A stretch of 64,000 nucleotides of DNA from Granulicella sp. S156. GTDB lineage: Bacteria; Acidobacteriota; Terriglobia; Terriglobales; Acidobacteriaceae. Shown piece by piece: positions 13,301 to 61,282 of this stretch (position 1 is its first letter; the number at the start of each line of letters is the position of its first letter). The position numbers and the translations under genes are program-made. Location of the stretch: contig NZ_LMUH01000009.1 in the NCBI RefSeq assembly GCF_009766105.1, positions 213,428 to 277,427 of the forward strand, in the 5' to 3' direction. Below the pieces are notes generated by a model that saw only the letters and a program-made list of their open reading frames with translations, made no database searches and was not told the origin of the DNA.

Positions 13301-13804
13301 TGCAAAACCAGGAGCCAGCTCCAGCAGGTCATAGGGGTTGCGGGTATTGAGCGGCAGGCTGCGAATCGAGGTGCCATTGACCTCGTCGCTGACCACAGAC
13401 GAGACCGTATCCAGGTCCGTAACGTCTGCGTTTACGGTCACGGTCTGCTGTACCTGTCCCACGCGAAGGGCCACATCCAGACTGGCATGTTGTCCGAGAT
13501 CAAGCCGGATGCCGGCCTGGTCGTATCCCTGAAACCCGGCCGCCTTGACGCTGAGCGAATAGGTTCCGGGTGCGAGGTTCAGGAGGGAGTATTCACCCTT
13601 CTGGTTCGAGGTCTCGACCGTGCGCGCGTTGGTCTCCGCGTTGGTCGCTGCTACCGTAGCGCCGCTGACCGTCGAGCCACCACTATCCCGCACCACGCCG
13701 AGCAGACTTGCGCCGGTGTCCTGGGTAAACCCGGTCCGGCAGAGTGCCAGCAACAAAACCATGCCCAGGTATCGGACACCTCTAAGAACTCCACGCTGTA
13801 TCAT
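10373..13804 (-). CDS. TonB-dependent receptor with carboxypeptidase-regulatory N-terminal domain (Oar-like)
   Basis: Large outer-membrane receptor (1143 aa) of the type expanded in Acidobacteria. Residues 1-27 are a signal peptide; residues about 30-115 form a carboxypeptidase-regulatory-like beta-sandwich (GVVRDSGGSTVSGATVAATN, then GEYSLLNLAPGTYSLSV). A plug domain follows (NTRNPYDLLELAPG to SFSVNGGRQGYTDVLVDG) and then the barrel, ending in the expected terminal Phe (LKLMF). The ATG at 13804 is preceded by GGAGGAG. It is divergently transcribed from a membrane-anchored putative regulator at 14084, which may control it. The ligand is unknown; oligosaccharide or peptide uptake is usual for this class. 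Confidence 0.93.
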   Translation of the reverse strand: MIQRGVLRGVRYLGMVLLLALCRTGFTQDTGASLLGVVRDSGGSTVSGATVAATNAETNARTVETSNQKGEYSLLNLAPGTYSLSVKAAGFQGYDQAGIRLDLGQHASLDVALRVGQVQQTVTVNADVTDLDTVSSVVSDEVNGTSIRSLPLNTRNPYDLLELAPGFAGSVGNDYNSVSFSVNGGRQGYTDVLVDGTPAGFPTVNGNSGIGIFPSVDAIGEFRLLAQNYPAEFGRSLDGILNVVFKSGTNEFHGTAFEFIRNSDLDANSYFNKQHGTPLPPFRRNQFGGVLTGPIFKNRTFFLLSTELLREGDFNSVTATVPTLAQRGGDFSQTFGANGQLISIYNPFSTRLNGSSYVRDPFAGNKIPTNLMSAVAQKALSYYPLPNAAGNPVTNANNYFATGTTINQTTAWDVRIDHTISDKQKIFGRYSNRFYSSSPNPLFPAADAVAEGLINGEDFDRGVTLGYTATPNARTIVDARLGFSRTLYNYLNNSLGFQAATLGLPASLNAAGGTDLFPVFSPAGYVGLGNNGNRHNAFMTYSLLSSITMVRGQHTIKAGFDGRLIRVNDHESADSSGNFSFGTTFTSGPNPNSASANTGNGLASMLLGTGTGDLIQAYKDDASQSYYLAEYVQDDWRVSKKLTLNLGLRYDLDTPRTERFNRMNYFNPTITSPLSSAVPGLQGGLVFVGVDGNSRHQYHIDANNFAPRFGFAYAAQESTVIHGGAAIVYGPSAQAAAGTVGPYGFRVQNNWISTLNSNGITPSNTLDNPFPQGFQTPPGSSQGLLTGDGGQIEGVLQNTPTPYVVQWDLDIQQTLPWGTTMDLAYVGNRGRKQQQSREGGIDFDQLPKEDLALGSQLNAVVANPYFGSITTGALNTATTTKAQLLKKYSQFTSVLPLFLAGGNDQYDGMQLRVNKRFASGLQLQGSYVWAKNFDNGTTHQDSFNPMADYAISSQDVHQRFIISYIYAAPFGRGKTFGANMSRWEDAIAGGWQVNGITTLQGGTPLQISATNNLSNFNYQTLYANTNFQNAAYHGDIHQRLSKYFNTADFSQPGTSANPFALGDGPAYYNNLRSPGLNSTDLSLLKDFDPFEKLKVQFRTELFNAFNHVQFGSPDTGVNDATFGQITAQNNSPRQLQFGLKLMF

Positions 13805-33765: not shown

Positions 33766-33820
33766 CTGTCCAAAGGATTCTTCTCATGCCATGCAAGGTT
33801 TTATTGTCTTAGGAGGCAAG

Positions 33821-36800
33821 ATGAAAGTTTTACGAGGCACACCGGGAGCCATAGCCCGTACCTGCGTCACTGCCATTGCGATTATGATGATCTTCGGCAG
33901 GAATGCCGATGCACAGGATTACAGGGCCAAGCTGACGGTTGCCGTCACTGACTCGACAGGGGCCGCCGTTCCGGGAGCCTCTTTGAAGCTTGAACGCAGC
34001 AGCACAAAGCAGGTGACACCCGCAACCACAGATGCGACGGGTTCATTCACCTTTCAGTTCCTTGAGCCGGACACCTACCAGGTCACCGCGACGGCGCCCA
34101 CGATGAGCACGTCTATTACAACGGGTATCGTTGTGCAGGCCTATGCCTCGTCCAGCATCGTAGCGGCGCTCAAGCCGGCTACCATAACTGCGGATGTGAC
34201 TGTCACGGCGGAAGGCGCGCTCCTGCAGACGGAGTCTGCGACGCGAGCCTGGGATATCGAACACGCAGATGTCACGGACCTCCCCGTCATCAACGGAAAC
34301 CCCGTGATGTTGGGTGAAGACATCCCCGGGGTATATATGCGGCCGCTTGGAATCTATACCGATCCCTGGACTATCACGTCACAGTATCTGATCAACGGCG
34401 GTCTCATGTACCTCAACGAGTTCGAGATCGACGGCAGTCCCAACGATGCTGAACTCGGACTTAATACCTACGCCTACACGCCTCCGGTCTATGCGGTAAA
34501 GACCTTTACCGTAAGCGCGAACAATTATGACGCGGAGTACGGTCATACAAGCGGTGGGGTGATTAACCTCACCACGCTCTCTGGTGGAGCGAAGCTGCAT
34601 GGCATGGGATGGATGTCCCTTCGGCGTACAAGTTGGAACGCGAATACCTATCAGAATAAGTATGAGAACGCGATCAACAATACGAACGCCAACACGACGC
34701 CCTTCAACACTCAAACACAACTGGGCTTCCAGGTGGGCGGACCCATTGTGGCGCCACATGTGATTCCTTCGTCACAGACATACAAGCCGTACTTCTTCTT
34801 TGCCTTCGACCACTACTCAGAACTATTGCCGAGGGGCCTGTTGTTGTCCTACCCCACGGCCAAGATGAAAACGGGTGACTTCTCCGAACTACTGCCGTTC
34901 GGCGTGCAGATCGATGATCCCGCGACTGGACACGCAGGTGCTAACGGCGATTGGGTCCGCGATCCATTTCCGAACAATGTCATCCCGGCGAACCGTATGA
35001 ATCCGGTTGCCATGAATATTGCGAAGGTATTTCCAACGGTAGGCACGACGCCTGCGGGGCAGCGGCCCGGTACGGAAAATCTCAATATTCCAAACAACTA
35101 CTTCAATTGGCACTTCCACAACTTGTTGGGCCGTTTCGATTTTGACATCGGTGACAAATACAAGTTCTTTGTACGTCCCTTCTATGCGAACTTTACCGAG
35201 GTCAGCAACGCGGGCGGCATCGTGGGGCCTGGTGAATATGGTGGCCAGTTTTCACGCACAAGTAAGGGCTTCCTCGTCGACTTTATCGACGCAGTGAATC
35301 CCAAGACTGTGCTCAACGTCCGCTACGGCTATAGCTTCTTCCGAGTGTTATGGAAGAGCCCATCCAACCAGAATGTAGATCTCGCCTCGTTGGGCTATCC
35401 GGCAAGCTATGGAAGCAGTCTGCAGCAACCGAACTTCTTCGGCGACTACAATTTCCAGAACTATAGCCCTGTTGGCTGGTTTGATAACACCGAGGACACA
35501 GGCACCTATTCCACCGAAGGGAATATCTCCCGCACCATGGGAAGACACAATGTCCGCGTAGGCTGGGACGTACGGTTGGTGCATTTCACATTTATCAATC
35601 CGGGCTATCCCACGTTTACCAGCAACAGCGACTTCACGAGCGCCGACTTCAACAATACTGGTTCCGAGACGTACAGCGGCGATAGCTTTGCGACTTTCCT
35701 GCTAGGAACACCGTCCAACGGCAACACGGCGTACAACGCCACGGAGACGATCTCTACCTGGTATCTTGCACCATGGCTCCAGGATGACTGGAAGATCACG
35801 AAGAACCTTACGCTCAATCTGGGATTCCGTTACGACGTGTTGACGGCGCCCGTCGATAAATACAATTCCCTTGATATAGGATTCAATCCCAACGTGCCGA
35901 ATGCGGTGCAGGCACAACTGCCGCCGAGTGCGATCGGTATCCTGCCGCAGACGTCGAACCTTACAGGGGGCCTCGAATTTGCCAACGTGAATGGGAATCC
36001 GAGGTCTCCATTCCCGACCGTGTATCACAATATCCAGCCGCGCCTGGGTTTTGCATGGCAGCCCCTCGATCGGCTGGTGGTCCGTGGTGGCTATGGCCTC
36101 TTCTATACCAACTTCCAAAGCAACGGGATGATCCAACAACTTGGCTTCTCCTCAAATACCCCGTTGGTGACATCGAATGACGGCGGTCGAACACCCATCT
36201 CCAATGTCCTCACCAATCCGTATCCAGGCGGACTCATTCAGCCTACTGGGTCCACGTTGGGCACCCTCACAGGTGTCGGTCAGACTCTCACGACGTACAG
36301 CCAGAATTACAAGATCCCGAGCTCCAATGAATTCTCGCTCGGTCTTCAGTACCGCTTATTCAAAAACGGTGTAGTGGATGCCTCCTATGTAGGAAACCGC
36401 GTCATAGGCTACGACATGACGTACGATGCGAACCTGCCGTCGTGGGGCTTCCAGCAACAGTGCGATGAGATCTATGCACAAGGGAATAACAGCCTCTGCA
36501 CGGCTCAAAAGGCAAATCCATTTACCGGAGTATCGGCCTTCCAGAGCACGAGCTACTACACGGCATCTACCTTCGATGCGTATGACCTCAATCGTCCGCA
36601 TCCAGAGTTCCAGGCGGTCAATACCAGCGGCCTCAACCAGGGTCATAACTGGTACAACGGGCTTCAAGTCGATTACACGCAGAAGCTGGAACATGGCATC
36701 TCCTTCAACACCAGCTATGCATGGTCGAAGCAGATCGAGCAGTGGGGATGGATGAACCAGGCGTTGAATCTGCGCCAGCGCAGTCCATACTCTGAAGGGC

Positions 36801-37441
36801 TGCCCCATGTGTTCAAGGTCTTTGGAGTCTTCCAGCTTCCAATTGGCCGCGACAAACTGGTCAGGGTGCAAAATCGCGTACTCGATGCCTTCGTTGGTGG
36901 CTGGGAGGTCTCCCCGGACTTCACGGTTCAGAGTGGTGAACCCGCGTCGTTGCCGACGAATGCCATTCCGCTTCCGCACAATCGGTTCTATAACCATCAG
37001 AACTGGCACCAGCAGCAGGTACGCGCATGGAACGGTTGCGTACTAGACTATAACCCCGGTGGCTCTCCAACTATCCCGGGTGGTAACACCGGAGTAGAGG
37101 CGCAGCAATGCGGCACGAACCCTGCGAACTATGACTGGCTTGAAGTAACGGATCTGCCCTATGAACAGACTCTACCTACCAGCTCCAGCTTCGTTCGCAT
37201 GAAACCGATGATTCTTTCTGATGCCGCTCTTCAGAAGTCCTTCAAAATCCGTGAAGGCGTCAATGTAGTGGCGCGGTTGCAGGCATCGAATGTATTGAAC
37301 CACTTCAACCTTCTTACGGCACGGTTCGATACAAATCCCAATGATCCGCCCAATCTGTTTGGAACCGTCATCCAGGGACAGACTCCTTCGGCGGATTCGC
37401 CGCCGCGCAACCTGAACGTGCAAATCCATGTGAACTTCTAA
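33821..37441 (+). CDS. TonB-dependent receptor, Oar-like
   Basis: Outer-membrane receptor, 1206 aa from ATG 33821. AGGAGG lies 4 bp before this ATG; an in-frame ATG 30 bp earlier is less likely. Signal peptide to ADAQ; carboxypeptidase-regulatory domain about 25-110 (LTVAVTDSTGAAVPGASLKLERS, GSFTFQFLEPDTYQVTA); plug domain with YLINGGLMYLNEFEIDGSP; long barrel ending in Phe (VQIHVNF). It is followed 84 bp later by a secreted beta-propeller protein, and both are enclosed by the minus-strand kinase and regulator genes, so this is probably the transporter of that locus. A weak LacI-like site is at 33719-33732. Confidence 0.92.
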   Translation: MKVLRGTPGAIARTCVTAIAIMMIFGRNADAQDYRAKLTVAVTDSTGAAVPGASLKLERSSTKQVTPATTDATGSFTFQFLEPDTYQVTATAPTMSTSITTGIVVQAYASSSIVAALKPATITADVTVTAEGALLQTESATRAWDIEHADVTDLPVINGNPVMLGEDIPGVYMRPLGIYTDPWTITSQYLINGGLMYLNEFEIDGSPNDAELGLNTYAYTPPVYAVKTFTVSANNYDAEYGHTSGGVINLTTLSGGAKLHGMGWMSLRRTSWNANTYQNKYENAINNTNANTTPFNTQTQLGFQVGGPIVAPHVIPSSQTYKPYFFFAFDHYSELLPRGLLLSYPTAKMKTGDFSELLPFGVQIDDPATGHAGANGDWVRDPFPNNVIPANRMNPVAMNIAKVFPTVGTTPAGQRPGTENLNIPNNYFNWHFHNLLGRFDFDIGDKYKFFVRPFYANFTEVSNAGGIVGPGEYGGQFSRTSKGFLVDFIDAVNPKTVLNVRYGYSFFRVLWKSPSNQNVDLASLGYPASYGSSLQQPNFFGDYNFQNYSPVGWFDNTEDTGTYSTEGNISRTMGRHNVRVGWDVRLVHFTFINPGYPTFTSNSDFTSADFNNTGSETYSGDSFATFLLGTPSNGNTAYNATETISTWYLAPWLQDDWKITKNLTLNLGFRYDVLTAPVDKYNSLDIGFNPNVPNAVQAQLPPSAIGILPQTSNLTGGLEFANVNGNPRSPFPTVYHNIQPRLGFAWQPLDRLVVRGGYGLFYTNFQSNGMIQQLGFSSNTPLVTSNDGGRTPISNVLTNPYPGGLIQPTGSTLGTLTGVGQTLTTYSQNYKIPSSNEFSLGLQYRLFKNGVVDASYVGNRVIGYDMTYDANLPSWGFQQQCDEIYAQGNNSLCTAQKANPFTGVSAFQSTSYYTASTFDAYDLNRPHPEFQAVNTSGLNQGHNWYNGLQVDYTQKLEHGISFNTSYAWSKQIEQWGWMNQALNLRQRSPYSEGLPHVFKVFGVFQLPIGRDKLVRVQNRVLDAFVGGWEVSPDFTVQSGEPASLPTNAIPLPHNRFYNHQNWHQQQVRAWNGCVLDYNPGGSPTIPGGNTGVEAQQCGTNPANYDWLEVTDLPYEQTLPTSSSFVRMKPMILSDAALQKSFKIREGVNVVARLQASNVLNHFNLLTARFDTNPNDPPNLFGTVIQGQTPSADSPPRNLNVQIHVNF

Positions 37442-49875: not shown

Positions 49876-49930
49876 TTGACAGTTACTCGTAGGCGTCGCT
49901 ATAGTTCTCCTCTGGCTGGAATCGTTACCA
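49876..49930 (+). promoter_or_regulatory. Promoter and LacI-type operator of the GxGYxYP gene
   Basis: TTGACA (49876-49881) and TATAGT (49900-49905) are 18 bp apart, a near-consensus sigma-70 promoter. Directly downstream, where transcription should begin, is TGGAATCGTTACCA (49917-49930), a near-palindrome centred on CG like other LacI-family operators. The same 14 bases occur upstream of the TonB receptor gene beside the LacI gene. Confidence 0.78.
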
Positions 49931-50006
49931 TTTCAGCCTATTGCTTGGTTTTGTAGATATTGCCTCTTGGCGCTTCAAGGATTTAATCCCGCGCAAAGGA
50001 TGAGTT

Positions 50007-52031
50007 ATGTCCATATCTCGCAGAGAATTCCTGGTCCTGAGCGGCGCTGCCGCCGGGTCAAGCGCCGCAGGCCTTGCGGCTTACTCACAAACGGCTGTAA
50101 ATCTATACGGCTCTTCGGAGTTCTACTGGCCTCCGGATAGAGCGTTGCCCGTGTTTCCCGAGGCCTTTCATCTGGATGCTGCTGATCTTTCGGCACTCGA
50201 CGGTGACCAGCAGGGATTGTTGGTGTCCCTGCAGGGCATCGTGAATCGTACCCGCCCGCGGCTCTATTTCTATTGGGGTACTGATCCCACAAACCTGGAA
50301 TGGCTGAAGACGATCCATGTTCCCTATACGGTGACAACTGAGCCCTGGTCCCTGTTCGAGCGCTATCGCTCAGAGGTGCGCGGCGCAATTGTTTACGATC
50401 CTAATTTGCCGGACACGATCAATTTGGCGACTACGCTGGCTGGGGTTCACAATGCGGTGATTGCGACGGCTGATCTGGCTAACCTCTACCACCTGCCTAT
50501 TTTGGAAGATCTGCGCGGCCGGTTCTCGAACAAACTCGCGATGTATCAGTACGCCCTCAAAAATGTGTGGCCCAATCTGACCAAGCGGCTTGTGACAGCG
50601 ATCAGCCCATCCACTACGCAGACGACGGCGAATGTTCAGTGGACCACGCTGCTCAAGGTGACAGCGCCGATAACGGATGGGTCGAATAAGGCGACCTACA
50701 CGGCAGACTTATCGGCGTTCCTCGACAAGCCATCCGTTTACGTGCAGTACCAGGATGCGTATTCGAACACTGGCTGGGGGCCATCAGTCTCCCAGGTGAC
50801 GGTGACGGCGGATGGCAATGTGATCGCATCGTTTCAACCGGGTACCGATGCTGAGACACCCTTTCTCTTTGACCCCGATAGCTCGCAGATAGCGTCAGGT
50901 GGATGGCGATTCGCGGATGGGACCAACTACTTCATCTATAAATTCACGCCGCCGGTCGGAACCAAAACACTCACGCTTTCCACGCTGATGTGGAACCAAT
51001 ACTTTGTGACGGCGACTAGCACCCAGCCAAGCTATCAGGTGGTGAATCCATTATTCCGTGATTACATCGTGGCGACCAGAGCCCCTGTCTTTTGGCTCGA
51101 TCCCAACGTGGCGGAAGAGGCAGCGTTATTCGCGCAGATACTGCAGACTGTCGAGCCTAATACGGCCTATCTGGGCTGGTTTCCAAATGGAGACGAAATG
51201 TCGGGCGTGACACTTTGCGCACAACACTCGACGGTTGTTGTGGCCGCGGATGACTTGTACAACGCCAGCGTCTTCAGTGGCGTACGGGCACTTATCAAAA
51301 CGTATCAACCTCCCGCCTCAATTCCTCAACTCTCCAACAAGATCTATCTTTCGCTGACTATGGTTGAAGGCGACAACGTCCAATATGATCAGCATCGGAT
51401 GCGCCAGATGTGGGACGATCCGACCCGTGGGCAGGTACCGCTGGGATGGAGTATCAGCGTGTTGCTGTTCGATATCGCCCCGGCTATGTTGAGTTATTAC
51501 CAGCAGACACAGACTCAGAACGATCTGCTCGTTGCGGGACCATCAGGGGCGGGTTACACCTATCCTGTGATGTGGCCGGCTTCCACTCTGCCCAAATTCA
51601 TAAGCCGCAGTGGCGCGTACATGCAGCGGACAGGCATGCATACACTGTTTGCCTACAACCGCGATAACAGCACAGACCTGCCGCTATCTTCCAGTCTTGT
51701 GGACCTGTACAAGCGGAACACTCCAGGCCTCGAGGGCGTTGTGTACAACTACGAGACTACGAGCCAGGCAAGCCTCATCGATGGTCTGCCCGTGGCCACG
51801 CTACTAGGTGTGAACGATGCACCAAGCGGAATCACGGAACTGGCGAGTATCGCTGCGAGCTGGAACGGAACGAGCCCGCTCTTTGTGGCGGCTGGGTTGG
51901 AGTCGTGGAACATGATGCCGGCTGATGCAAAGACGCTGGTTGCTTCGCTCGGTTCGCAGTTTGAAGTGGTGCGGCCGGATGTGTTCTTCAAGTTGCTGCG
52001 GCAGTCTCAGACGAATCAGACGAAGAAGTAA
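50007..52031 (+). CDS. GxGYxYP-family putative glycoside hydrolase, Tat-exported
   Basis: 674 aa. MSISRREFLVLSGAAAGSSAAG is a twin-arginine signal. The name-giving motif of the family is present as GAGYTYP at 514-520. Also seen: a LDGDQQGLLVSLQGIVNRTRPRLY N-terminal segment common to the family, an inserted beta-sandwich-like region at about 190-340 (discoidin-like pattern KVTAPITDGSNKATYTADLS), and LSLTMVEGDNVQYDQHRMRQMW. The biochemical activity of the family has not been established to my knowledge. The promoter carries the same operator as the mannan-locus TonB receptor, and GH76/GH92 genes are convergent next door, so an alpha-mannan role is inferred. Confidence 0.85.
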   Translation: MSISRREFLVLSGAAAGSSAAGLAAYSQTAVNLYGSSEFYWPPDRALPVFPEAFHLDAADLSALDGDQQGLLVSLQGIVNRTRPRLYFYWGTDPTNLEWLKTIHVPYTVTTEPWSLFERYRSEVRGAIVYDPNLPDTINLATTLAGVHNAVIATADLANLYHLPILEDLRGRFSNKLAMYQYALKNVWPNLTKRLVTAISPSTTQTTANVQWTTLLKVTAPITDGSNKATYTADLSAFLDKPSVYVQYQDAYSNTGWGPSVSQVTVTADGNVIASFQPGTDAETPFLFDPDSSQIASGGWRFADGTNYFIYKFTPPVGTKTLTLSTLMWNQYFVTATSTQPSYQVVNPLFRDYIVATRAPVFWLDPNVAEEAALFAQILQTVEPNTAYLGWFPNGDEMSGVTLCAQHSTVVVAADDLYNASVFSGVRALIKTYQPPASIPQLSNKIYLSLTMVEGDNVQYDQHRMRQMWDDPTRGQVPLGWSISVLLFDIAPAMLSYYQQTQTQNDLLVAGPSGAGYTYPVMWPASTLPKFISRSGAYMQRTGMHTLFAYNRDNSTDLPLSSSLVDLYKRNTPGLEGVVYNYETTSQASLIDGLPVATLLGVNDAPSGITELASIAASWNGTSPLFVAAGLESWNMMPADAKTLVASLGSQFEVVRPDVFFKLLRQSQTNQTKK

Positions 52032-52042
52032 GAGGCAAGAAA

Positions 52043-52091
52043 GAGGCGGACGGGGCTTCACTTATGAAGTGAAGCCCGTCCGTCTCTTTTT
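52043..52091. terminator. Strong intrinsic terminator shared by convergent GxGYxYP and GH76 genes
   Basis: A stem of about 20 bp (52043-52063 with 52067-52086, one mismatch and one bulge) with a 3-base loop is followed on the plus strand by TTTTT (52087-52091). It follows the GxGYxYP stop. The right arm also encodes the last codons of the GH76 gene, whose stop is at 52058-52060. Confidence 0.85.
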
Positions 52092-53197
52092 GATATTGCC
52101 GTTGCGGCTACAAGCACGTCTAGCGCAGAGCTCTGCGTGCTCGCATTGACCTCTCCGGACGGTGCAGCCCAGATCAGGCCGAGGTGGTAGTCCGGCGGCT
52201 GTGCCCCAGCCCAGATGCTGTTTGCATTGGTATCTATAAATTTTTCATATTCTGACTGTGGTGCTGCTTCGTCGAGAGACAGCAAGTTACGTACAAAGAT
52301 ACCCTTGAACTGTGATCCATCCCCGCCGCAGTTCGGCTCGCAGGGTTCATGTAAGATCCCGTGCCTGTCGATCAAAGTAGGTGAAGAGAGTGTGGCAGTG
52401 GCGATGGTATGAGCTTCGGCGAGAAGGGAAGAGTCATGGTCAGCTTTGTACAACTCGGCCAACCCACCTATAGCAACGCCCTGGTTGTAGGTCCATGTTT
52501 GTTGGTGGTTATTGGTGCAATTTGAGTCAAGACCGTCATTGATCAGGTGATCGGCATTGATCATGCCGGAACGAGAAAACCACTGCCACTCGCGTTTTGC
52601 CCAGGAAAGGTATTCCGTACGGCTCTGCGTGCTCTTCGCTCGGACCGCGAGTTCTGCGGCCACAGAAAGAAAAAGCTCGTTGGCAATGGCATTCTTGTAT
52701 TTACGATCTTTGCTCCACCAGATTCCTCCGGAGCACGTGTCATCCCAGGCACCGGACATATCTGCAAAAATAGATTCCGCAGCCTTAAGGTATTGCTGGT
52801 CGTGAGTAATGTCATATTCATCGATCCATGCCAGCGCCCACCACCCTTCGTCATCATAAAAACGATTGATAAATCCGGGAGAAGTTTTTTGGGCAGCGGA
52901 TAAGGTATTCCGAAAGACGGAATCAAACTCTCGGGAGCCGGTAACCCTCGAGTAGTCGGCCAGTGTTGTCAGGGCGTTTGCCGAATTCCACCAGCCCGTT
53001 GTCTTATAAAGGCCGGTTTGCTCGTCGTACCAGGATTGAAGGCTATGAATCGCCAATGAGGAGCGTTGGCTCCAGGCAGCGCTCTCCGAATGAGCTGGAA
53101 CATCTGCTTTCGGGGCGGGTGTAAAGATGAAAAACAGGCTCCACGTCGTGAAGAGCAAACGGCAAAGGCGAAAGTTCCATTTTGCACTCAAGAGCAT
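52058..53197 (-). CDS. Glycoside hydrolase family 76 (endo-alpha-1,6-mannanase)
   Basis: 379 aa from ATG 53197, which has AGGAGAG 8-9 bp upstream. N-terminal signal/anchor (about 10-30). The (alpha/alpha)6 fold shows GWWNSANALTTLADYS, the catalytic pair Asp115-Asp116 in FYDDEGWWALAWI, WDDTCSGGIWWSKDRKYKNAIANELF and GVAIGGLAELY. GH76 enzymes cut the alpha-1,6-mannan backbone of yeast and fungal mannan or of actinobacterial lipomannan. It follows the GH92 gene by 63 bp in the same direction. Its last nine or so codons form part of a terminator stem. Confidence 0.9.
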   Translation of the reverse strand: MLLSAKWNFRLCRLLFTTWSLFFIFTPAPKADVPAHSESAAWSQRSSLAIHSLQSWYDEQTGLYKTTGWWNSANALTTLADYSRVTGSREFDSVFRNTLSAAQKTSPGFINRFYDDEGWWALAWIDEYDITHDQQYLKAAESIFADMSGAWDDTCSGGIWWSKDRKYKNAIANELFLSVAAELAVRAKSTQSRTEYLSWAKREWQWFSRSGMINADHLINDGLDSNCTNNHQQTWTYNQGVAIGGLAELYKADHDSSLLAEAHTIATATLSSPTLIDRHGILHEPCEPNCGGDGSQFKGIFVRNLLSLDEAAPQSEYEKFIDTNANSIWAGAQPPDYHLGLIWAAPSGEVNASTQSSALDVLVAATAISKRDGRASLHK

Positions 53198-53260
53198 GTT
53201 CTGGTCTCTCCTATTCTTCTGCATTCGTTAAGTGGCGAGGTGAATTCCATGAAAAGGAAC

Positions 53261-55591
53261 TCACCTATTGGAGGCCGACATTGAAGGTGGTGCTTGATCC
53301 GGTGCGCTGCCCCAGTTCTTGTTGGGGACCGGCCCCATATTCAACACCAGTCGTCCGCCATCAATAATGTCGGAGTGGCTAAACCACGGTTTGTTCCATG
53401 GCTTTCCGTTGAGCGTTGCGGATTGGATGTAGATGTTCTTTGCTGAGTTGTTGTGCGCAACAATCGTGAAATCTTTTTTGTTGCCCATGTGGATGGTCGC
53501 CTCATCGAAGAGAGGGCTTCCCAGAATATAGTTCGGGCTGGAGGGATCGACTGGATAGAACCCCAGAGCGCTCATCACATACCAGGACGATGTCGAACCC
53601 TGGTCGTCCATTCCTGGGAATGCGAGGCCAGTACTATCGCTGCCGTACATCTCTTTGAGGATTTGCCGCGCTAGCTTCTGGGTCTTCCATGGCTGGCCGG
53701 CCCAGTCGTAGTAATAGGCTGCCTGTTGATCGGGCTGATTACCTTGTACATACTGGCCGATGATTCCGGTGCAATCGCGGCAGATGCCTTTTGCCGTATA
53801 GGGAGTGCTAAAGAACTCATCCAGCTTGGCAGCAAAGGCATCCCGCCCACCCAGAAGATTCGTTAGGCCCTGAACATCGTGGGGAACAAGCCACAGGGTT
53901 GACCAGCCGGAGGCTTCCTTCATCATAAAGTTGTAGTAGGGTTCTTTGGGATCGAATGGTGAGATCCATTTCCCGTCTTCAGTTCTTCCGCGTATGAATC
54001 CGACAGAGGGATCAAACACATTCTGGTAGTTATGAGCCCGCTTTAGGAATAGATCATAATCGTCTTCCTTGCCAAGTTTTTTGGCATAGAGAGCGAGAGC
54101 ATAATCGTCCCAGCTATACTCCAGCGTCGTAGCCGCTCCGGCTTTACCGCCAGCATAGGGAGGGCTCGGATTACCCTTCGGAATCACATCCGAAATCCAC
54201 CCCTTCTGCATGTACTCCGCAAGATAGCCTCTGGGTCCGTGTGCATCCGTCGCATTCTTGCGTAGATATTCATAGGCGGCGGCCCAATCGAAGTTCAGGC
54301 CACGCTCCCAGTCTCCCAGGTACATCAGAACTGCGTTGTCGCCATGGAACGACGTGCCCATATAGCCGGATTCTCGAGCTATATCGAGTTGTGAGCGCAG
54401 AATGTCCAGCTTTACATCGGGCTCCAGAAGTGTGAGGAGAACAACCTGATTGCGTCCGGTATCCCATAACGGTACCTGGCCATAGCGGTCATATTCAGCG
54501 GTGCGGACTTTCCCATCGAAACCGGTGAACTGCTCACCCTTTCTCGCCATCAAGCGCGGACTGGCAAAGGAATGATAGAGGCACGAATAGAACAGTGCTT
54601 TTTCTTTCTCCGTTCCACCCTTCACTTCGATCGGGTCAAGTTTCTTCGCCCATGCGGTCTCGGCCTGAGTTTTTATACGATCGAAATCCCATCCTGGATC
54701 TTCTGCTCGTAACCTCGCCTCGGCGATGGAGTAGCTGAGACCAGACGCGACCTTTACTAGAACCTGTTCGCCCTTCGTCGTGGCAAACCGTAGATAGGCG
54801 CCGGCGTAGTCTCCGGAGATAGTGTGTGCCCCCGGCTCCACATCGCTGTAACCGACCAAAGATTCATCTCTGTTCGTATAAGTGGGAGGATAACCCTTGA
54901 ATGTCCCGGAAGTGCTGAAGGGCTTTGAAAATTCAGCGACAAAGAATGTTCTGCCATTTTTCGATGTACCGCGCAGTGTATGGTCATCTACAACTTCGAC
55001 CTCTCCGCCGGCATGGCCCAGGTCGAATACGATGTGCGCTTTCTCGGTTTGCGGAAACGTGAACCTGAAAACTCCAGTCCACTGGGTCACGGTCATCTCC
55101 GCCAGCGTGCTGAAGTCGTTCAGGTAAACGCTGTAATATCCTGGCGAAGATTTTTCACGGGCCTTGTCATAGACAGACGCACTCCGGTCCGGAGGAACAG
55201 TCCAGTCGCCTACCATAGCTGTGACTGTGGGCCCATCTTCCGAGCCGCTCGAAAACCCCATGATGGTGCGGTTCGGATAAAAGTAGGATGATCCCACCCC
55301 CGCGGGATAGACGAGGTCCAGATTCACATTGATCGGCGCAAGCTCTGTTGAACTGTGTGGCAGTGTTGCTCCCGGAGAGGTGAATCCTGAGTAGAGTCGT
55401 TCACCGGGTGGCGGCGCATTCCCAATGAACTTTTGATTATCCAATGGCGCAGTGCCAACTAGCCCATTGGCATAATCGATAGGCCGTTTGGAGGAGGCGA
55501 GTGTGTGCTGGGCTGCCATCCCTGGAAGCAAGGACGACCCAGATAGTAGAAATATGGTCAGATATATTGCTGATCGGCGCACAGGCAGCAT
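53261..55591 (-). CDS. Glycoside hydrolase family 92 alpha-mannosidase-like enzyme
   Basis: 777 aa from ATG 55591 (AGGAG 9 bp upstream). Signal peptide to MAAQ. N-terminal beta-sandwich (YANGLVGTAPLDNQKFIGNAPPPG, then PYTH-like start of GH92), then the helical barrel: GTSFHGDNAV, ATTLEYSWDDYALA, probable general acid Glu559 in KEASGWSTLWLVPHDVQG, and base region Asp662-Asp663 in GMDDQGSTSSWYVMSALGFYPV. The usual GNEPSHH segment reads GNQPDQQ here (Gln619), so leaving-group specificity may differ. Calcium-dependent exo-alpha-mannosidase acting with the GH76 gene downstream. Confidence 0.9.
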   Translation of the reverse strand: MLPVRRSAIYLTIFLLSGSSLLPGMAAQHTLASSKRPIDYANGLVGTAPLDNQKFIGNAPPPGERLYSGFTSPGATLPHSSTELAPINVNLDLVYPAGVGSSYFYPNRTIMGFSSGSEDGPTVTAMVGDWTVPPDRSASVYDKAREKSSPGYYSVYLNDFSTLAEMTVTQWTGVFRFTFPQTEKAHIVFDLGHAGGEVEVVDDHTLRGTSKNGRTFFVAEFSKPFSTSGTFKGYPPTYTNRDESLVGYSDVEPGAHTISGDYAGAYLRFATTKGEQVLVKVASGLSYSIAEARLRAEDPGWDFDRIKTQAETAWAKKLDPIEVKGGTEKEKALFYSCLYHSFASPRLMARKGEQFTGFDGKVRTAEYDRYGQVPLWDTGRNQVVLLTLLEPDVKLDILRSQLDIARESGYMGTSFHGDNAVLMYLGDWERGLNFDWAAAYEYLRKNATDAHGPRGYLAEYMQKGWISDVIPKGNPSPPYAGGKAGAATTLEYSWDDYALALYAKKLGKEDDYDLFLKRAHNYQNVFDPSVGFIRGRTEDGKWISPFDPKEPYYNFMMKEASGWSTLWLVPHDVQGLTNLLGGRDAFAAKLDEFFSTPYTAKGICRDCTGIIGQYVQGNQPDQQAAYYYDWAGQPWKTQKLARQILKEMYGSDSTGLAFPGMDDQGSTSSWYVMSALGFYPVDPSSPNYILGSPLFDEATIHMGNKKDFTIVAHNNSAKNIYIQSATLNGKPWNKPWFSHSDIIDGGRLVLNMGPVPNKNWGSAPDQAPPSMSASNR

Positions 55592-55915
55592 AAAAGCGGC
55601 TCCTATTATTTTTATTTTCGTTTGGGTGAGCGCGGGGCGTGCGCTCCGCAAAGTAAAAACTCTTTGATGTCCTACAGGCCGTATGGCTGGCTGCTTTGCC
55701 CGGACTTCTGCAGTCTCTGCTGTACTGCTTCGCCGATTCTCTTCTCCAGATCAATCAGGACTGAACTGGGTGGCTCTGGCGGTAGTGGCTTATTGTGTTC
55801 TGTCGAGACGATTGGGTTGATATCGATCAAAAGAAGGACAGGTAAAAACGATTGTCTTTGCTCAGCGCTAGGAAGTGATGAACGGTCCGTTTCTTGTTAT
55901 GCCTGAAAGGAAAAA
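55592..55915 (-). other. Leader region of the GH92-GH76 operon
   Basis: No annotated gene. On the minus strand a frame stays open from 55896 to a stop at 55672-55674 and reads ...VLIDLEKRIGEAVQQRLQKSG..., which looks protein-like but has no good start or ribosome site. A half-operator-like AACGATT lies at 55847-55853. No clear -35/-10 pair is found. Confidence 0.35.
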
Positions 55916-55948
55916 TATAGGCCCCGGCAGCTTCTGCCGGGGCCTATA
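55916..55948 (-). terminator. Intrinsic terminator of the TonB receptor gene
   Basis: A perfect 15-bp stem, TATAGGCCCCGGCAG (55916-55930) with its complement at 55934-55948 and a 3-base loop, is followed on the minus strand by TTTTTCC. It lies 10 bp after the receptor stop and separates this gene from the GH92 operon. Confidence 0.88.
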
Positions 55949-55957
55949 CCTACATCT

Positions 55958-58900
55958 TTAGAACGTGATCTTGCCCTCGAGCTGTAGCACCCTGGGGATG
56001 TTCTGCTGCTGGTAGCCCACCGTGCCAAACCCGTGCCAACCGGAACCAGCTTGGAACGTGGCTGGGCCGTCGCCAGGATTCGTATCAGGGCCCCCGAAGA
56101 GCACCGAATTCGTTGCGTTGAATGCATCCAGGCGCAGCGTGAAGTTCAAACGATTCGAGATTGGCACGGACTTTTCAAGTGAAAGATCCAAGTCAGGCAT
56201 TGTCGGATTACGCACTTGCCCCGTTGTGCCAGTCAGGTTCATCAGGCCATAGGGCGGGATGCCCTGCCAGCAGGAACTTGGATCATTTGCGGTTGAGAAC
56301 CAGTGGCCCAGCGTCGAGCCTCCTTGCGGTTTATAGCTATGATCGCAAGTGTAAAACCACCCGGTGTTGACTCCGACTGGCGTTCCGCTTTCGGCATAGA
56401 ACACACCGCCCAGTATCCAGCCACCAACCAATGCATTCAAAGGCCGGGAAGCGTTGGCTAACAGCAGGCCACCTCTCCCAATCGGCAGGTTGTAGACCGA
56501 TGTGACCGCCAGAACGTGCGTCCGATCCGAGCCGGCCAGCTGATGAATTTGTTGGATGTCCTGATAGGGCCAGCCGTTCAGGTATCCGTCCTCGTTGATC
56601 GTCTTTGAATACGTGTAGGAGATCTGGAAACTCAAGCCGCGCCCTAGGCCTCCACCCACACGTTTATTCAGCTTAACCTCCAGAGCGTTGTAGAAGTTGC
56701 CCCCGATCGGTGCGTTGTATTCTCCCACCAGTCCCGTGCCGCCGGGACTGCAATATTGTGGCAGGATCGTGCGCAGCTCGATCGCGGGGATCGTCGTCGA
56801 TGTGCCGCACTGTCCCGGCCCTGAGATGCCCGGAACGCCATAAAAAGGATTCGGTACCTGTTCGTTGAAGTAGTTCGGATTGGCGATGGCCTGCTCTTCC
56901 TGGGCGAGGCTCACGGTTCCATTGGTCCACAGGGAGGCGCGCAGGCGGGTCGTGAAATTTCCGGCATATCTGACATCGAGAACCAGTCCGGACGATAGCT
57001 CGCGCTGGAAACCCAGGGACATGACCTGTTCCTTGGGGATCTTGCGGGACGGGAAGTCTACTTGTACGGTGCCGTTGCCAAGGTCGGTCTCCAGTCCCAG
57101 GCTATTGCCAGTGGGAGCAAGCAGGCCAGTCGAAAAAGGATTCCCGCTCTTGAAGTAGTTCGTCGGCGTGTTGCCACCGTCTGTCGAGGCTGTGTAGTTC
57201 GTGGTCTGAGTCTCGCCTATGCTGGAGCCTCCCTCCAGCCCGAACGAGTACATGAGTCCCCAGCCGCCCCGGATCACCGTTTTGGGGTTGATCTGATAGG
57301 CGAAACCAAAACGAGGACCCACGTCGGTCCAATCGGTGTCATAGGCATCGCGCGACTGCCCGTTGACACCGGGAAACTCGATCCCACCCAGGACTGTTCC
57401 GAGCGAGGCCGTGTCAATGCCGGCCGCTGTCCATGCAGCGGTATTGGCCGCGTTCGTTACGTTTGACTGGTAGGCAGCCTCGTTCCCAATCGGGTTCACA
57501 CAGGTAAGGCAGAAGCCTCGGTTCAGGTTGTTGTTCCGTTCCCGGAGTCCGCGCTGCACGTCATAGCGAATTCCCAGGTTAAAGGTCAAGCGCGATGTGG
57601 CACGCCAGTTGTCTTGAAAGTAGCCCGCGTACACCGGGTAGCCTTCCATGATCGACCCGATCCAGTCGACGCCGCCGTTATAGGGATCACCCAGGTAGAA
57701 GGACGCCAAAGCGGACCCGTTCTGGTTGGCGTTCTGGGTTGTGCAAGTGGGATTGCTTCCGCCACCGGGAGAGTAGCAGTTTGAGTTTTGCGGATCATAT
57801 TGCGTGAAAGCTGAGTTGTAGCCGAATCTGCCGTTCGCGTTCCCGCCCCCGAACGGGTAGCCTCCGAATTGGAACTCATCGATCTCGCCGCCGAACTCCA
57901 TCGTATGCGACCCGTGGGTCTTCGTGAAGTCCACGTTGAGTGTGTAGTTGTTAGTTACGCTGGCGCTGAAGGCGTTGTTGCCGAAGATGTTGTTGTTGCT
58001 ATTAGGATTACCCCCTGTAAATCCGGTACCCCATCCGTCCGTCACCTTGAACTGAGGAAGGTAGCTTGCACTCGCGGTGCCGGGCAGAGGCATCGCCAGA
58101 CCGATCGCCGACGGATCCGTTTGCTGGCTCAGATTGCCATTGGGGGAGTTTGCGTAGTAGCGGTTGAAGGAGACCTTGAAATCACCTGTCAATGTCGGCG
58201 AAAAGACGTGCGTCACGTCCTGCGTCGCCACCCAGGTAGTGTGTACCGCGTTGATAGTTCCATTTTCGGCAACCCCAGTGAATCCGTTGCCGTTTTGAAA
58301 CTGGGCGCCATTGGAATATATGTAGTAGCTGTACAGTTTCGTCTTGTCGCTCAGGTTGTAATCCACGCGGATCTGTGGCTGGTTGTAGTGCAACAGGCCT
58401 GGGTTCTGCGCAAAGTAGTTATTTGCACTCGCTGAGTTTTGTGCCCCGGGAATATTGGGTAGCGGAATGTATTTCAACACGGCAGCTGCAGTCGGATTAA
58501 TCATCGACCCCGGGATGGCGTCTCCTGGAAAGAGCTGCTGGGCGATCAGATTGCTGTTGCAGGAAGTCACTGGGCCGCCCGCGAGGCAGGCTCCCGTTCC
58601 CGGTTGATAGATCGGCAGACCATTGGGAAAGGTGCTTGGGTCCATTGCCTTAACCTGGGAAAAATCTACACCGGCGTTACCGTTATATCCGGGCCGCAGA
58701 TAGGCAGGCGCGACATTTTCGAGTATCGATGCCGCCAGCGATTGATGGAATCCCTCAAAGCCGAAAAAGACGAATAGCTTGTTTTTGATGATGGGCCCGC
58801 CCGCCGTGATCCAGAACTGGTTCTGCACCTCACCGTTACGCGGAGCTCCCTCAAGGTTGTTCTGGTAGTAGTTCGCGTTCATCGTCGTGCCTTGATAGGC

Positions 58901-59695
58901 GTACCGCGCGGTCGCGTGGAACTGGTCGGTGCCGCTTTTGCTCACAGAACTCACCGTGCCGCCGCTGGTGCGCCCATAGCGCGCGTCATAGGTGGTGGTC
59001 ATCACGTTGATCTCTTGGATGCTGTCCAGGTTCGGGGAGATCGTCCACTCACCCGCGCCCTGGTTATCGTATGTGTATTGGCTCGTGATGTTCGAACCGT
59101 TCAGCGTGAATTGGTTATTGCTACCAATGCCTCCCCCGATCGAGTACGAGCTTTGCGCGTTATAACCGTTCATCTGCGTGTTCGCCGCATACGTCGGTTG
59201 ACTGCCTGGCGTCGTGCCGATCAGGGCATAGATCTGTCCGCCGTTCAAGGGAACGTTCTCAATCTCGCGCGTGCCGATGACGTTGTTGCCCGAGGCGTCT
59301 GCGGTTTCCAGTTGTGGGGGCGCGTCACTCACTACCACCTTCTCGGAGATCGAGCCCACCGCCATCTTGAAGTTCTGGTTGAATACCTGCGAGGAGAGTA
59401 ATAGCACCTTTTCCTGCACGGCCGTTGTAAATCCCTGTGCCTCCGTCGACACGGTGTAGGTTCCTGGCAGCACATAGGGAATGTAATAAACACCCTTGCC
59501 GGTCGTTTTGCCGGTATAGGTCGTTCCCGAGTCGACGTTGACCGCCTTTACCTTGGCGTTCGGGATGACAGCTCCCGTCGGATCGGTTACCTGTCCTGTT
59601 AGTACGGAACGAAAATCTTGAGCCGAGCTGTTCACAACAAACAAGAACAGGGCTAGTAAAAAAACTGGCAAGCAGCGGTACAGAGCTTTACACAT
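55958..59695 (-). CDS. TonB-dependent receptor of the mannan-type locus, Oar-like
   Basis: 1245-aa outer-membrane receptor. Signal peptide to SSAQ; carboxypeptidase-regulatory domain about 28-115 (LTGQVTDPTGAVIPNAKVKAVN, GVYYIPYVLPGTYTVSTEAQGF); plug with NVPLNGGQIYALIGTTPGSQ; barrel ending in Phe (LQLEGKITF). GGAGGAGG lies before the ATG. It is divergent from a LacI regulator at 60236 and followed by GH92 and GH76 genes, so it most likely imports mannan oligosaccharides. Its promoter region holds the 14-bp operator TGGAATCGTTACCA (minus strand). Confidence 0.93.
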   Translation of the reverse strand: MCKALYRCLPVFLLALFLFVVNSSAQDFRSVLTGQVTDPTGAVIPNAKVKAVNVDSGTTYTGKTTGKGVYYIPYVLPGTYTVSTEAQGFTTAVQEKVLLLSSQVFNQNFKMAVGSISEKVVVSDAPPQLETADASGNNVIGTREIENVPLNGGQIYALIGTTPGSQPTYAANTQMNGYNAQSSYSIGGGIGSNNQFTLNGSNITSQYTYDNQGAGEWTISPNLDSIQEINVMTTTYDARYGRTSGGTVSSVSKSGTDQFHATARYAYQGTTMNANYYQNNLEGAPRNGEVQNQFWITAGGPIIKNKLFVFFGFEGFHQSLAASILENVAPAYLRPGYNGNAGVDFSQVKAMDPSTFPNGLPIYQPGTGACLAGGPVTSCNSNLIAQQLFPGDAIPGSMINPTAAAVLKYIPLPNIPGAQNSASANNYFAQNPGLLHYNQPQIRVDYNLSDKTKLYSYYIYSNGAQFQNGNGFTGVAENGTINAVHTTWVATQDVTHVFSPTLTGDFKVSFNRYYANSPNGNLSQQTDPSAIGLAMPLPGTASASYLPQFKVTDGWGTGFTGGNPNSNNNIFGNNAFSASVTNNYTLNVDFTKTHGSHTMEFGGEIDEFQFGGYPFGGGNANGRFGYNSAFTQYDPQNSNCYSPGGGSNPTCTTQNANQNGSALASFYLGDPYNGGVDWIGSIMEGYPVYAGYFQDNWRATSRLTFNLGIRYDVQRGLRERNNNLNRGFCLTCVNPIGNEAAYQSNVTNAANTAAWTAAGIDTASLGTVLGGIEFPGVNGQSRDAYDTDWTDVGPRFGFAYQINPKTVIRGGWGLMYSFGLEGGSSIGETQTTNYTASTDGGNTPTNYFKSGNPFSTGLLAPTGNSLGLETDLGNGTVQVDFPSRKIPKEQVMSLGFQRELSSGLVLDVRYAGNFTTRLRASLWTNGTVSLAQEEQAIANPNYFNEQVPNPFYGVPGISGPGQCGTSTTIPAIELRTILPQYCSPGGTGLVGEYNAPIGGNFYNALEVKLNKRVGGGLGRGLSFQISYTYSKTINEDGYLNGWPYQDIQQIHQLAGSDRTHVLAVTSVYNLPIGRGGLLLANASRPLNALVGGWILGGVFYAESGTPVGVNTGWFYTCDHSYKPQGGSTLGHWFSTANDPSSCWQGIPPYGLMNLTGTTGQVRNPTMPDLDLSLEKSVPISNRLNFTLRLDAFNATNSVLFGGPDTNPGDGPATFQAGSGWHGFGTVGYQQQNIPRVLQLEGKITF

Positions 59696-60235
59696 GAGCG
59701 GCCTCCTCCAAAAAGGTTGATTCTTGGGTCAGTGGATACGTCGATCCACGCCCGTTTTCTTCGTCAGGTTATGTAGCTGGAAAGGTTTCCATCTTAGGAT
59801 GGTAACGATTCCACTAACATTTTTCGTTTCCGCGAAACCATACCACGTATCATCCAACGACTGTCAAGGAAAAATTTTGGAGCGATGTGGTTCCGGCCTC
59901 TGAGAAGAGGTATCAAAGGCAAACAAAAGAGTTACGGGAGTAAAGCGATTGTTCAGGACTCGTCCCATTTCAGCCTTGTGGCCTCGATGTAGCTCGCCAC
60001 AAACCTGCATAGCGCACACCTGTGCCAGGGACGTCCCCTCCCGGTATGGCGTCAGAAATGGATGAAGGCTATAAGCCTCGCGGGGCTCTTTGCCCGCTTC
60101 TGTATTTCATGGGCTGTCGCCCTGAAGCTGCAAAATAAAACAAGTCGTCCTTGCTCTTTAATCCTTTAGTATGGCACTCTGCGAACGAATGGTATTCGCT
60201 TGTGGGTGCGTAAGCCCTGATAGGATTGCTCCCGA
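59696..60235. other. 540-bp divergent region between TonB receptor and LacI genes
   Basis: Contains the receptor promoter and operator (separate entry), a 5'-leader hairpin GTGGAT-N6-ATCCAC near 59733-59748, and GGAAA-GG-TTTCC at 59779-59790. Nearer the LacI gene an imperfect GCGAA-N9-TTCGC repeat could be an autoregulatory site. No gene is supported. Confidence 0.5.
59800..59867 (-). promoter_or_regulatory. Promoter and LacI-type operator of the TonB receptor
   Basis: On the minus strand TTGACA (59867-59862) is followed after 19 bp by TATGGT (59842-59837). A short palindrome GTTTC-N3-GAAAC covers the next bases, and TGGAATCGTTACCA lies at 59813-59800, about 105 bp before the ATG. The last is identical, in the same orientation to its gene, to 49917-49930. 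Confidence 0.75.
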
Positions 60236-61282
60236 ATGAGGAAGAAGAGTACACACTCAACGCTCAATGACGTCGCCCGAAAAGCTGGCGTTGGAACTAC
60301 CACTGTCTCTCGCGTCATTAACGGCGGACAGAACGTCAATCCTGAAACACTGGCGCATGTCCGTCGTGTTATTAAGGCGTTGAGTTACACACCAAATCAA
60401 GCTGCGCGTTCGCTTAGAGGTGAACGCACTAAAACGATCAGCTTGCTCATCCCGAGCATTGCCGACCCATTCTTCTCCAGCTGTGCAGAAGTTGTACAGT
60501 CCATCGCCCAGACTAACGACTCCTTGTTGATTGTTACGGCTACGCACAACGATGCCAAGAGAGAGATTGAAAATCTCAACGTTCTGATACGTCATCGTAC
60601 TGACGGGTTGATCATTGCGCCTTCGAACCCACAGAGCGCCGCTTTGTGCGACTTGCTCGCACGTGTCGCGATACCTGCTGTTTCCATTGATCGCCCCATC
60701 TTCAAATCGAACATTCCCTCGGTTGTCGCGGATAACTATGATGGCGCTTTTACGGCTACACAGCACCTCATCGAACACGGCTACAAACGCATTTTGTGCC
60801 TAACCGGGGAAAGCGACTTCTATACAATTCGTGAGCGTATACGTGGCTACCGCAAGGCTATCGAATCGGCGGGTCTGATCGCCATGCTGGACACTTCGAT
60901 TCGAGACTACGAATCTGCCGAGCATGCCATCAAAACGTCTCTCAAAGCGGCCAATCCACCCGACGCGATCTTTACTCTGAAGAACAGTACTACCGTCTAT
61001 GCCTTTGAGGTCCTGCAACAATTAAACGTCAAAGTACCCGGTACGATCGCATTGCTGGGGTTTGATGACTTGGAGTTAGCCTCGGCACTTCGTCCGGCGA
61101 TCAGCGTGGTTCAACAGCCAATTGAAGAAATCGGAAGAATAGCCACCGAACTACTCTTCAATGAGCTTCGTGGCCCCCATAAATCTCGCAAATCGTCTGC
61201 TTCCAAGCGCCCTCAGAAGATCGAAGTGAAGACACGTCTTTTACTGCGGCACTCCTGTGGATGCCCGTCACCAAGAGTTTAA
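60236..61282 (+). CDS. LacI family transcriptional regulator
   Basis: 348 aa. Helix-turn-helix at about 10-30 (LNDVARKAGVGTTTVSRVINGGQNV) and hinge SYTPNQAARSLRGERTKTISLLIP; a type I periplasmic-binding-like effector domain follows (DPFFSSCAEVVQSIA, VSIDRPIF, VVADNYDGAFTATQHLIEHGYKRILCLTG, LLGFDDLELASALRPAISVVQQP). The end carries the Cys pair CGC common in this family. Divergent from the TonB receptor and placed at the mannan-type genes, it probably represses them until a mannose-containing sugar binds. Confidence 0.92.
   Translation: MRKKSTHSTLNDVARKAGVGTTTVSRVINGGQNVNPETLAHVRRVIKALSYTPNQAARSLRGERTKTISLLIPSIADPFFSSCAEVVQSIAQTNDSLLIVTATHNDAKREIENLNVLIRHRTDGLIIAPSNPQSAALCDLLARVAIPAVSIDRPIFKSNIPSVVADNYDGAFTATQHLIEHGYKRILCLTGESDFYTIRERIRGYRKAIESAGLIAMLDTSIRDYESAEHAIKTSLKAANPPDAIFTLKNSTTVYAFEVLQQLNVKVPGTIALLGFDDLELASALRPAISVVQQPIEEIGRIATELLFNELRGPHKSRKSSASKRPQKIEVKTRLLLRHSCGCPSPRV

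Follow-up and report, generated by a model that had tools for sequence, protein, structure and literature searches.

Two copies of the 14-mer TGGAATCGTTACCA, located at the outer ends of a locus of glycoside hydrolase and receptor genes, are probably (about three chances in four) operators through which a LacI-family repressor controls alpha-mannoside utilization. The 64-kb window, i.e. the whole stretch of DNA analysed here, holds only these two exact copies, at 49917-49930 on the plus strand and at 59800-59813 on the minus strand. A sequence-only reading of the same DNA had placed them 5' of a GxGYxYP gene and of a TonB-type receptor gene, respectively, and these coordinates and strands were reproduced, as was the count of ten symmetric positions out of 14 about a central CG. 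Both copies are intergenic and have the build of LacI-type operators, being even palindromes with a central CG that lie 5' of a gene. Operator networks of LacI-family proteins for sugar use are an already known kind of system. What is new here is the regulon itself, the operator-based link to GxGYxYP, a changed operator in the genus g41, and doublets at receptor promoters with a partner devoid of the central CG. The regulon is a concrete candidate for alpha-mannoside use in a probable acidobacterium, and no acidobacterial description of this operator was found in the literature searched, most subscription journals lying outside the reach of that search.

The GxGYxYP gene (50007..52031, plus strand) encodes a putative glycoside hydrolase of 674 aa (PF14323, PF20958, PF20957, PF16216). 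It points toward three co-directional genes on the minus strand, which encode a TonB-type receptor of 1245 aa with a carboxypeptidase-regulatory-like domain (55958..59695; PF25183, PF13620), a GH92 protein of 796 aa (53261..55651; PF07971, PF17678) and a GH76 protein of 388 aa (52058..53224; PF03663), and which may constitute an operon. Since the receptor-GH92-GH76 genes and the GxGYxYP gene face each other, they make up a single convergent module with an operator at each outer end. Alpha-1,6-mannan is the substrate of GH76 enzymes. Divergent from the receptor lies the gene (60236..61282, plus strand) of a 348-aa regulator with the recognition segment VGTTTVSR. The LacI gene that had been claimed to stand beside one operator copy was thereby recovered, as the protein carries PF00356 (56.7 bits at positions 9-54) and Peripla_BP domains (PF00532 and PF13377 over positions 66-341) and belongs to the LacI/GalR family. 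The nearest named relatives of this protein are five MAG records, 61-65% identical, of which four are labelled acidobacterial and one Formivibrio, which suggests that the window comes from an acidobacterium. Two further receptor-like proteins, 27% identical to the receptor, are encoded in the window (10373-13804 and 33791-37441), and a window scan for the 14-mer at up to two mismatches detected none near either of them.

The promoter of the form TTGACA-N18-TATAGT, proposed earlier to precede the 49917 copy, was read at 49876..49905 on the plus strand (TTGACA 49876-49881, an 18-base spacer, TATAGT 49900-49905). The operator begins 11 bases past TATAGT and ends 76 bases 5' of the GxGYxYP start codon. 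PF14323 was found in 8 of 150 genomes, and a TGG-type operator is present 5' of six of these eight GxGYxYP genes, as the exact 14-mer in our own genome, G088, G066 and G072, and as variants in G019 and G117. The exact operator before GxGYxYP is thus shared letter for letter with three other genera. The distance from TTGACA to the operator is 41-44 bases in all eight GxGYxYP promoters. Five of the six genomes with the TGG-type operator carry a window-type LacI and G117 carries a C19-type LacI (see below); the co-occurrence of GxGYxYP and LacI among genomes has p 0.008 with our own genome left out. In G066 (L213:5942-9087), a distant LacI-like gene, 27% identical, is situated directly 3' of the GxGYxYP gene. 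The order in G072, which belongs to another genus, is an orthologous receptor with a one-mismatch operator, LacI, the exact operator and GxGYxYP, and the exact 14-mer also precedes receptors of G033 and G070. The G072 GxGYxYP gene (L160:10737-12725) may be broken or misassembled, because the frame from its start has stop codons.

According to the accessible part of PMC4071793, GxGYxYP genes occur in alpha-mannan loci of Bacteroides thetaiotaomicron and Caldithrix abyssi, and catalytic activity of GxGYxYP proteins has not been found so far. Common to those loci and the present one is that the neighbours of GxGYxYP include GH92 and GH38 mannosidases. The link in those loci, as far as that text could be consulted ('regulator' has 0 occurrences in it), is gene neighbourhood, whereas here a shared operator ties GxGYxYP to a regulon, which adds regulatory evidence that GxGYxYP proteins act in alpha-mannan use.

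Matches to the window LacI with an E-value of 1e-60 or lower were present in 46 of 150 genomes of the same family, our own genome counted. We fetched the neighbourhoods of 29 matches in other genomes along with three own-genome stretches (32 loci), and later 20 more. The window and the 32 loci, together 672 kb, contain 44 symmetric sites vs 1 for the reversed control. Sites of the strict form TGGWANCGNTWCCA average 4.9 per genome in the 21 genomes with a window-type LacI and 5.0 in the six with a C25- or C19-like protein, and 0.72 in the 18 with the sister clade only (see below) and 1.31 in the 104 without a match. Counts in the window-type genomes differ from those in the sister-only and no-match genomes pooled (Mann-Whitney p 2e-8), and the reversed control showed no difference across the same groups (p 0.61). 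G141, G116 and G019 have few such sites (0, 1 and 1, respectively) despite a window-type LacI. Among the close named loci L091-L095, four of five have sites; L091, with a LacI 65% identical, has none nearby. No site of the symmetric form TGGNANCGNTNCCA was found at the 22 loci of LacI relatives outside the acidobacterial group (L096-L117), and the 27 loci L091-L117 together gave 8 such sites vs 3 for the control.

Our own genome has 15 LacI-type HTH matches, three of which are close. Apart from the window protein, these are C25:71724 (52% identical, recognition segment VGVGTASR) and C19:411361 (44-47% identical, VGTTTVSR), and symmetric sites lie within 7 kb of each of the three genes. The most serious alternative, though an unlikely one, is that the 14-mers are real LacI operators whose main binder is one of these two paralogs, or for which all three proteins compete, the local LacI being one input. 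In its favour, both paralogs have symmetric sites nearby, the C19 protein has the same VGTTTVSR segment, an A/T site also occurs at one C19-type locus, and in G117, where the close LacI is of the C19 type, a TGG-type operator precedes GxGYxYP. The bases beside the central CG argue for the window type. Near window-type LacI genes, 16 of 19 sites have A/T (the rest being two A/A and one T/T), as do both window copies, whereas the sites near C25-type genes are A/A in 4 of 4 cases and 13 of 15 near C19-type genes are without A (6 C/T, 6 T/T and 1 G/T, beside 1 A/C and 1 A/T). The group difference in these bases (p 1e-6) is only indicative, because sites in related genomes are not independent. Moreover, the operator pair of G072 adjoins a window-type LacI, and such sites are in use across the genomes of G070 and G119, in which the sole close LacI belongs to the window type.

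As both window operators are A/T, like those 16 sites, the local LacI is the best fit. It likely reads the two window operators, not exclusively, since three paralogs of the genome could bind the motif. The sequence-only reading had linked the operator to the local LacI. A shared LacI-type operator does join the GxGYxYP gene and the receptor, as in the arrangement of G072, but the link to that one protein has to be loosened, because the set is genome-wide and two more paralogs have sites. Two simpler rules for the bases beside CG were dropped. A strict need for A in the half-site of the window clade is contradicted by T/T sites in G070 and G119, and the hinge residue ahead of the conserved Leu gave no clean rule for A/T vs T/C, because Ser, Val, Ile and Thr are all found in the window-type group.

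In the sister LacI proteins, which share about 34-39% identity with the window protein, Met takes the place of the Thr found in the window type. TGG-type sites are present at 16 of 20 window-type LacI loci vs 1 of 22 sister loci, whereas TGATANCGNTATCA (up to one mismatch, intergenic) is present at 12 of 22 sister loci vs 0 of 19 window-type loci; without mismatch, it occurs at 6 of the 22 sister loci. The shorter core GATANCGNTATC was found at 8 of 22 sister loci, plus two window-type loci (L160, L166). Of the 150 genomes, 19 contain the exact TGATA motif, comprising 14 of the 35 with a sister-type match vs 5 of the 115 others. Intergenic sites resembling TGATANCGNTATCA near Met-type LacI genes were seen among loci L180-L199 and L062. 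This test is post hoc, because the TGATA motif was first spotted in the G099 promoter, and the loci in which it then turned up had already been fetched. Judged from the sequences, recognition helix and operator covary between the two LacI clades, and this covariation, post hoc as it is, provides the best evidence here that it is this LacI clade, and not another factor, that would read the TGG motif. The part of PMC2978694 available to us reports that the recognition-helix residues AA-15 and AA-16 covary with NT-5 and NT-4, AA-16 being the strongest determinant of these two bases, and that Arg at AA-20 goes with G at NT-6. By our own alignment the Thr/Met position corresponds to AA-16, and the pairing of Thr vs Met with TGG[A/T]A vs TGATA half-sites is in line with that code, as far as the part available describes it.

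The remaining two GxGYxYP genes, those of G040 and G099 in genus g41, have TGATAACGCTATCT at the operator place, and their promoters carry CTGATAACGCTATCTT where the others have the operator. The closest LacI of G040 is a sister match of 38% identity. In G099, a genome 85% complete, no LacI was detected at E 1e-60, and 10 weaker LacI-type HTH matches are present. We put at roughly even odds the proposal that the conserved GxGYxYP promoter switched repressors within the family, as a natural handover of repressor and operator on an orthologous promoter, and that the doublet partner at the receptor (see below) lost its CG. In this proposal the TGG-type operator goes with the small-residue LacI clade and TGATAACGCTATCT with g41, alongside the change to Met in the recognition helix of the sister clade with its TGATA-type sites. 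Two LacI clades with matched changes of helix and operator, partly on an orthologous promoter, offer material for testing how regulon rewiring proceeds.

The operator is part of a genome-wide set and is not local. The 6.44-Mb genome holds 4 exact and 8 one-mismatch copies of the 14-mer, and all 12 are intergenic by a simple gene caller, the non-coding share of the fetched own-genome DNA being about 13%. Many unrelated copies outside promoters, which the sequence-only reading had named as evidence that would speak against it, were thus absent among copies with 0-1 mismatches. Two-mismatch copies are mixed with background, because the 30 of 36 places examined were divided into 15 coding and 15 intergenic. 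The symmetric form gave 30 sites in our own genome vs 4 for the reversed control, and the stricter form gave 17. Fetched stretches covered 23 of the 30, with 22 intergenic and one inside a weak ORF. Over the fetched loci as a whole 79 of 82 sites are intergenic, a non-random sample because the selection of loci required a site, a LacI gene or GxGYxYP. TTGACA lies 39-44 bases ahead of the nearest operator in 16 of 18 picked regulon promoters, the exceptions being the window receptor, at 54 bases, and a GH76 gene on C13 without TTGACA. The fourth exact operator, C15:498288 (L047:9289-9302), is located 42 bases after TTGACA and precedes a 76-aa cysteine-rich ORF without a Pfam match (L047:9458-9688), followed by a thioredoxin-like gene and a glycosyltransferase, with no obvious connection to mannan utilization.

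Genes beside the own-genome sites encode three GH76 proteins (one with a ricin-type lectin domain), two GH38 proteins, two GH92 proteins, a GH2 protein with mannosidase Ig domains, receptors, an MFS sugar transporter and a LacI protein, along with neighbours lacking an obvious link to mannan (a GFO_IDH_MocA oxidoreductase, a DUF4185 protein and two NHL/SGL-type proteins). For Pfam analysis, 64 targets of up to 600 residues each were hand-picked from 94 candidate genes, as a rule one per site, the nearest; near-repeats of the ROK locus (L150-L153, L158) were excluded, as were the GxGYxYP genes at L209, L211 and L213. For comparison, 64 of 94 random genes, drawn from the other genes of the fetched loci, served as control. 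The targets yielded receptor barrel 17, GH38 14, ROK 5, GH92 4, GH76 4 and GxGYxYP N-domains 3, and by its GH38, GH92 and GH76 members this hand-picked set is one of mannose or mannoside targets. The control yielded MFS 4 and receptor barrel 3, and GH38, GH92, GH76, ROK and GxGYxYP were absent among the best 25 of its 124 families. A ROK or ROK-like gene, with an MFS transporter adjoining, comes first after the LacI-side operator in six relatives; the ROK domain was confirmed for L149. ROK proteins are often sugar kinases.

These targets also bear on a reading in which the motif would serve a global carbon regulator, CcpA- or Cra-like and not mannoside-specific. The scatter of the sites over the genome, the targets outside mannan use and the presence of CcpA among the closest relatives of the protein with a solved structure are compatible with such a regulator. 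However, the identified targets are mostly GH38, GH92, GH76, receptors and ROK, and the motif count tracks the presence of this LacI clade, and we regard a global regulator as quite improbable.

The sequence-only reading had also held that an exact 14-mer in two promoter regions was very unlikely by chance, which is wrong as worded. The window contains 50 pairs of repeated 14-mers, and 60 Markov sequences have 24 on average, so that the repeat alone is a weak argument against chance; intergenic repeated pairs number 12 (Markov mean 0.47). The TGGAATCGTTACCA pair is the only intergenic pair with at least 10 of 14 positions symmetric (Markov mean 0.033, maximum 1), and the 14-mer at up to three mismatches gave 10 matches in the window vs a mean of 3.46 and a largest value of 9 in 100 shuffles. 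A chance repeat or an unrelated intergenic repeat, which those 50 pairs with 12 intergenic might suggest, has next to no probability, as this is the sole intergenic near-palindromic pair and the cross-genus conservation before GxGYxYP and receptors contradicts it.

Under the preferred reading, that of a repressor of the LacI family governing alpha-mannoside use, the local LacI, possibly with the two close paralogs, would occupy the predicted operators as dimers when substrate is absent, and would repress rather than activate. At the GxGYxYP gene, repressor bound just downstream of the -10 element would block transcription, by occlusion or as a roadblock. At the putative receptor-GH92-GH76 operon, repressor on a 22-bp doublet at the promoter would block it likewise. 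A mannose-type sugar, inferred as effector because of the target genes, would free the repressor and open both ends of the locus, and the same release would open genes for GH38, GH76 and GH92 proteins and for receptors at other places in the genome. Against this repressor stand the window receptor, which is off the usual TTGACA spacing, the paralogs, which are similar candidates, and the targets with no obvious link to mannan. The lack of a site close to lacI (see below), the low site counts of G141, G116 and G019 and the site-free locus L091 also speak against it.

LacI-family sugar regulons have been reconstructed before, ManR being the example for mannose and mannosides in the part of PMC4052901 that we could consult. 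Our regulon resembles those described there in its even palindrome with central CG, sites 5' of genes, 22-bp pairs and carbohydrate targets, and the likeness to ManR is by target genes. Unlike those regulons, so far as that text describes them, three paralogs here have one motif type, and a CG-less doublet partner recurs at receptor promoters; 'Acidobacter' has 0 occurrences in the text.

The receptor promoter of the window contains a second operator-like site, TGGAAACCTTTCCA, at 59778..59791 on the minus strand, 22 bp from the first operator. As TGGAAAGGTTTCCA, this perfect palindrome is among the window matches with up to three mismatches and matches on both strands; the sequence-only reading did not contain it. 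Its centre is CC/GG in place of the CG of LacI-type operators, and we count it as operator-like because of its 22-bp spacing and recurrence. A TTGACA at 59862..59867 (minus strand) is a possible -35 element of this promoter, for which no clear -10 was established. No site at up to three mismatches was found between 59814 and the lacI start, so lacI itself is without a proximal operator. A DNA loop joining the two operators, which are 9.9 kb apart, was considered and dropped.

Operator doublets recur in two other genera, the 22-bp doublets at receptor promoters being found also in G072, G070 (two) and G119. Pairs of LacI sites peak at 13, 22 and 32 bp, of which 22 and 32 are read as cooperative binding, and even palindromes with another central pair are listed for 49 TFs, in the portion of PMC4052901 available. 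The doublet partner at the receptor promoter may have lost its central CG, and may be filled only cooperatively. One partner has CC/GG in place of CG in the window doublet, in one G070 doublet and in the G119 doublet, and both partners have it in G072. A 21-bp doublet is also present at one GH76 gene of our own genome, and neither its partners nor those of the other G070 doublet have the CC/GG centre.
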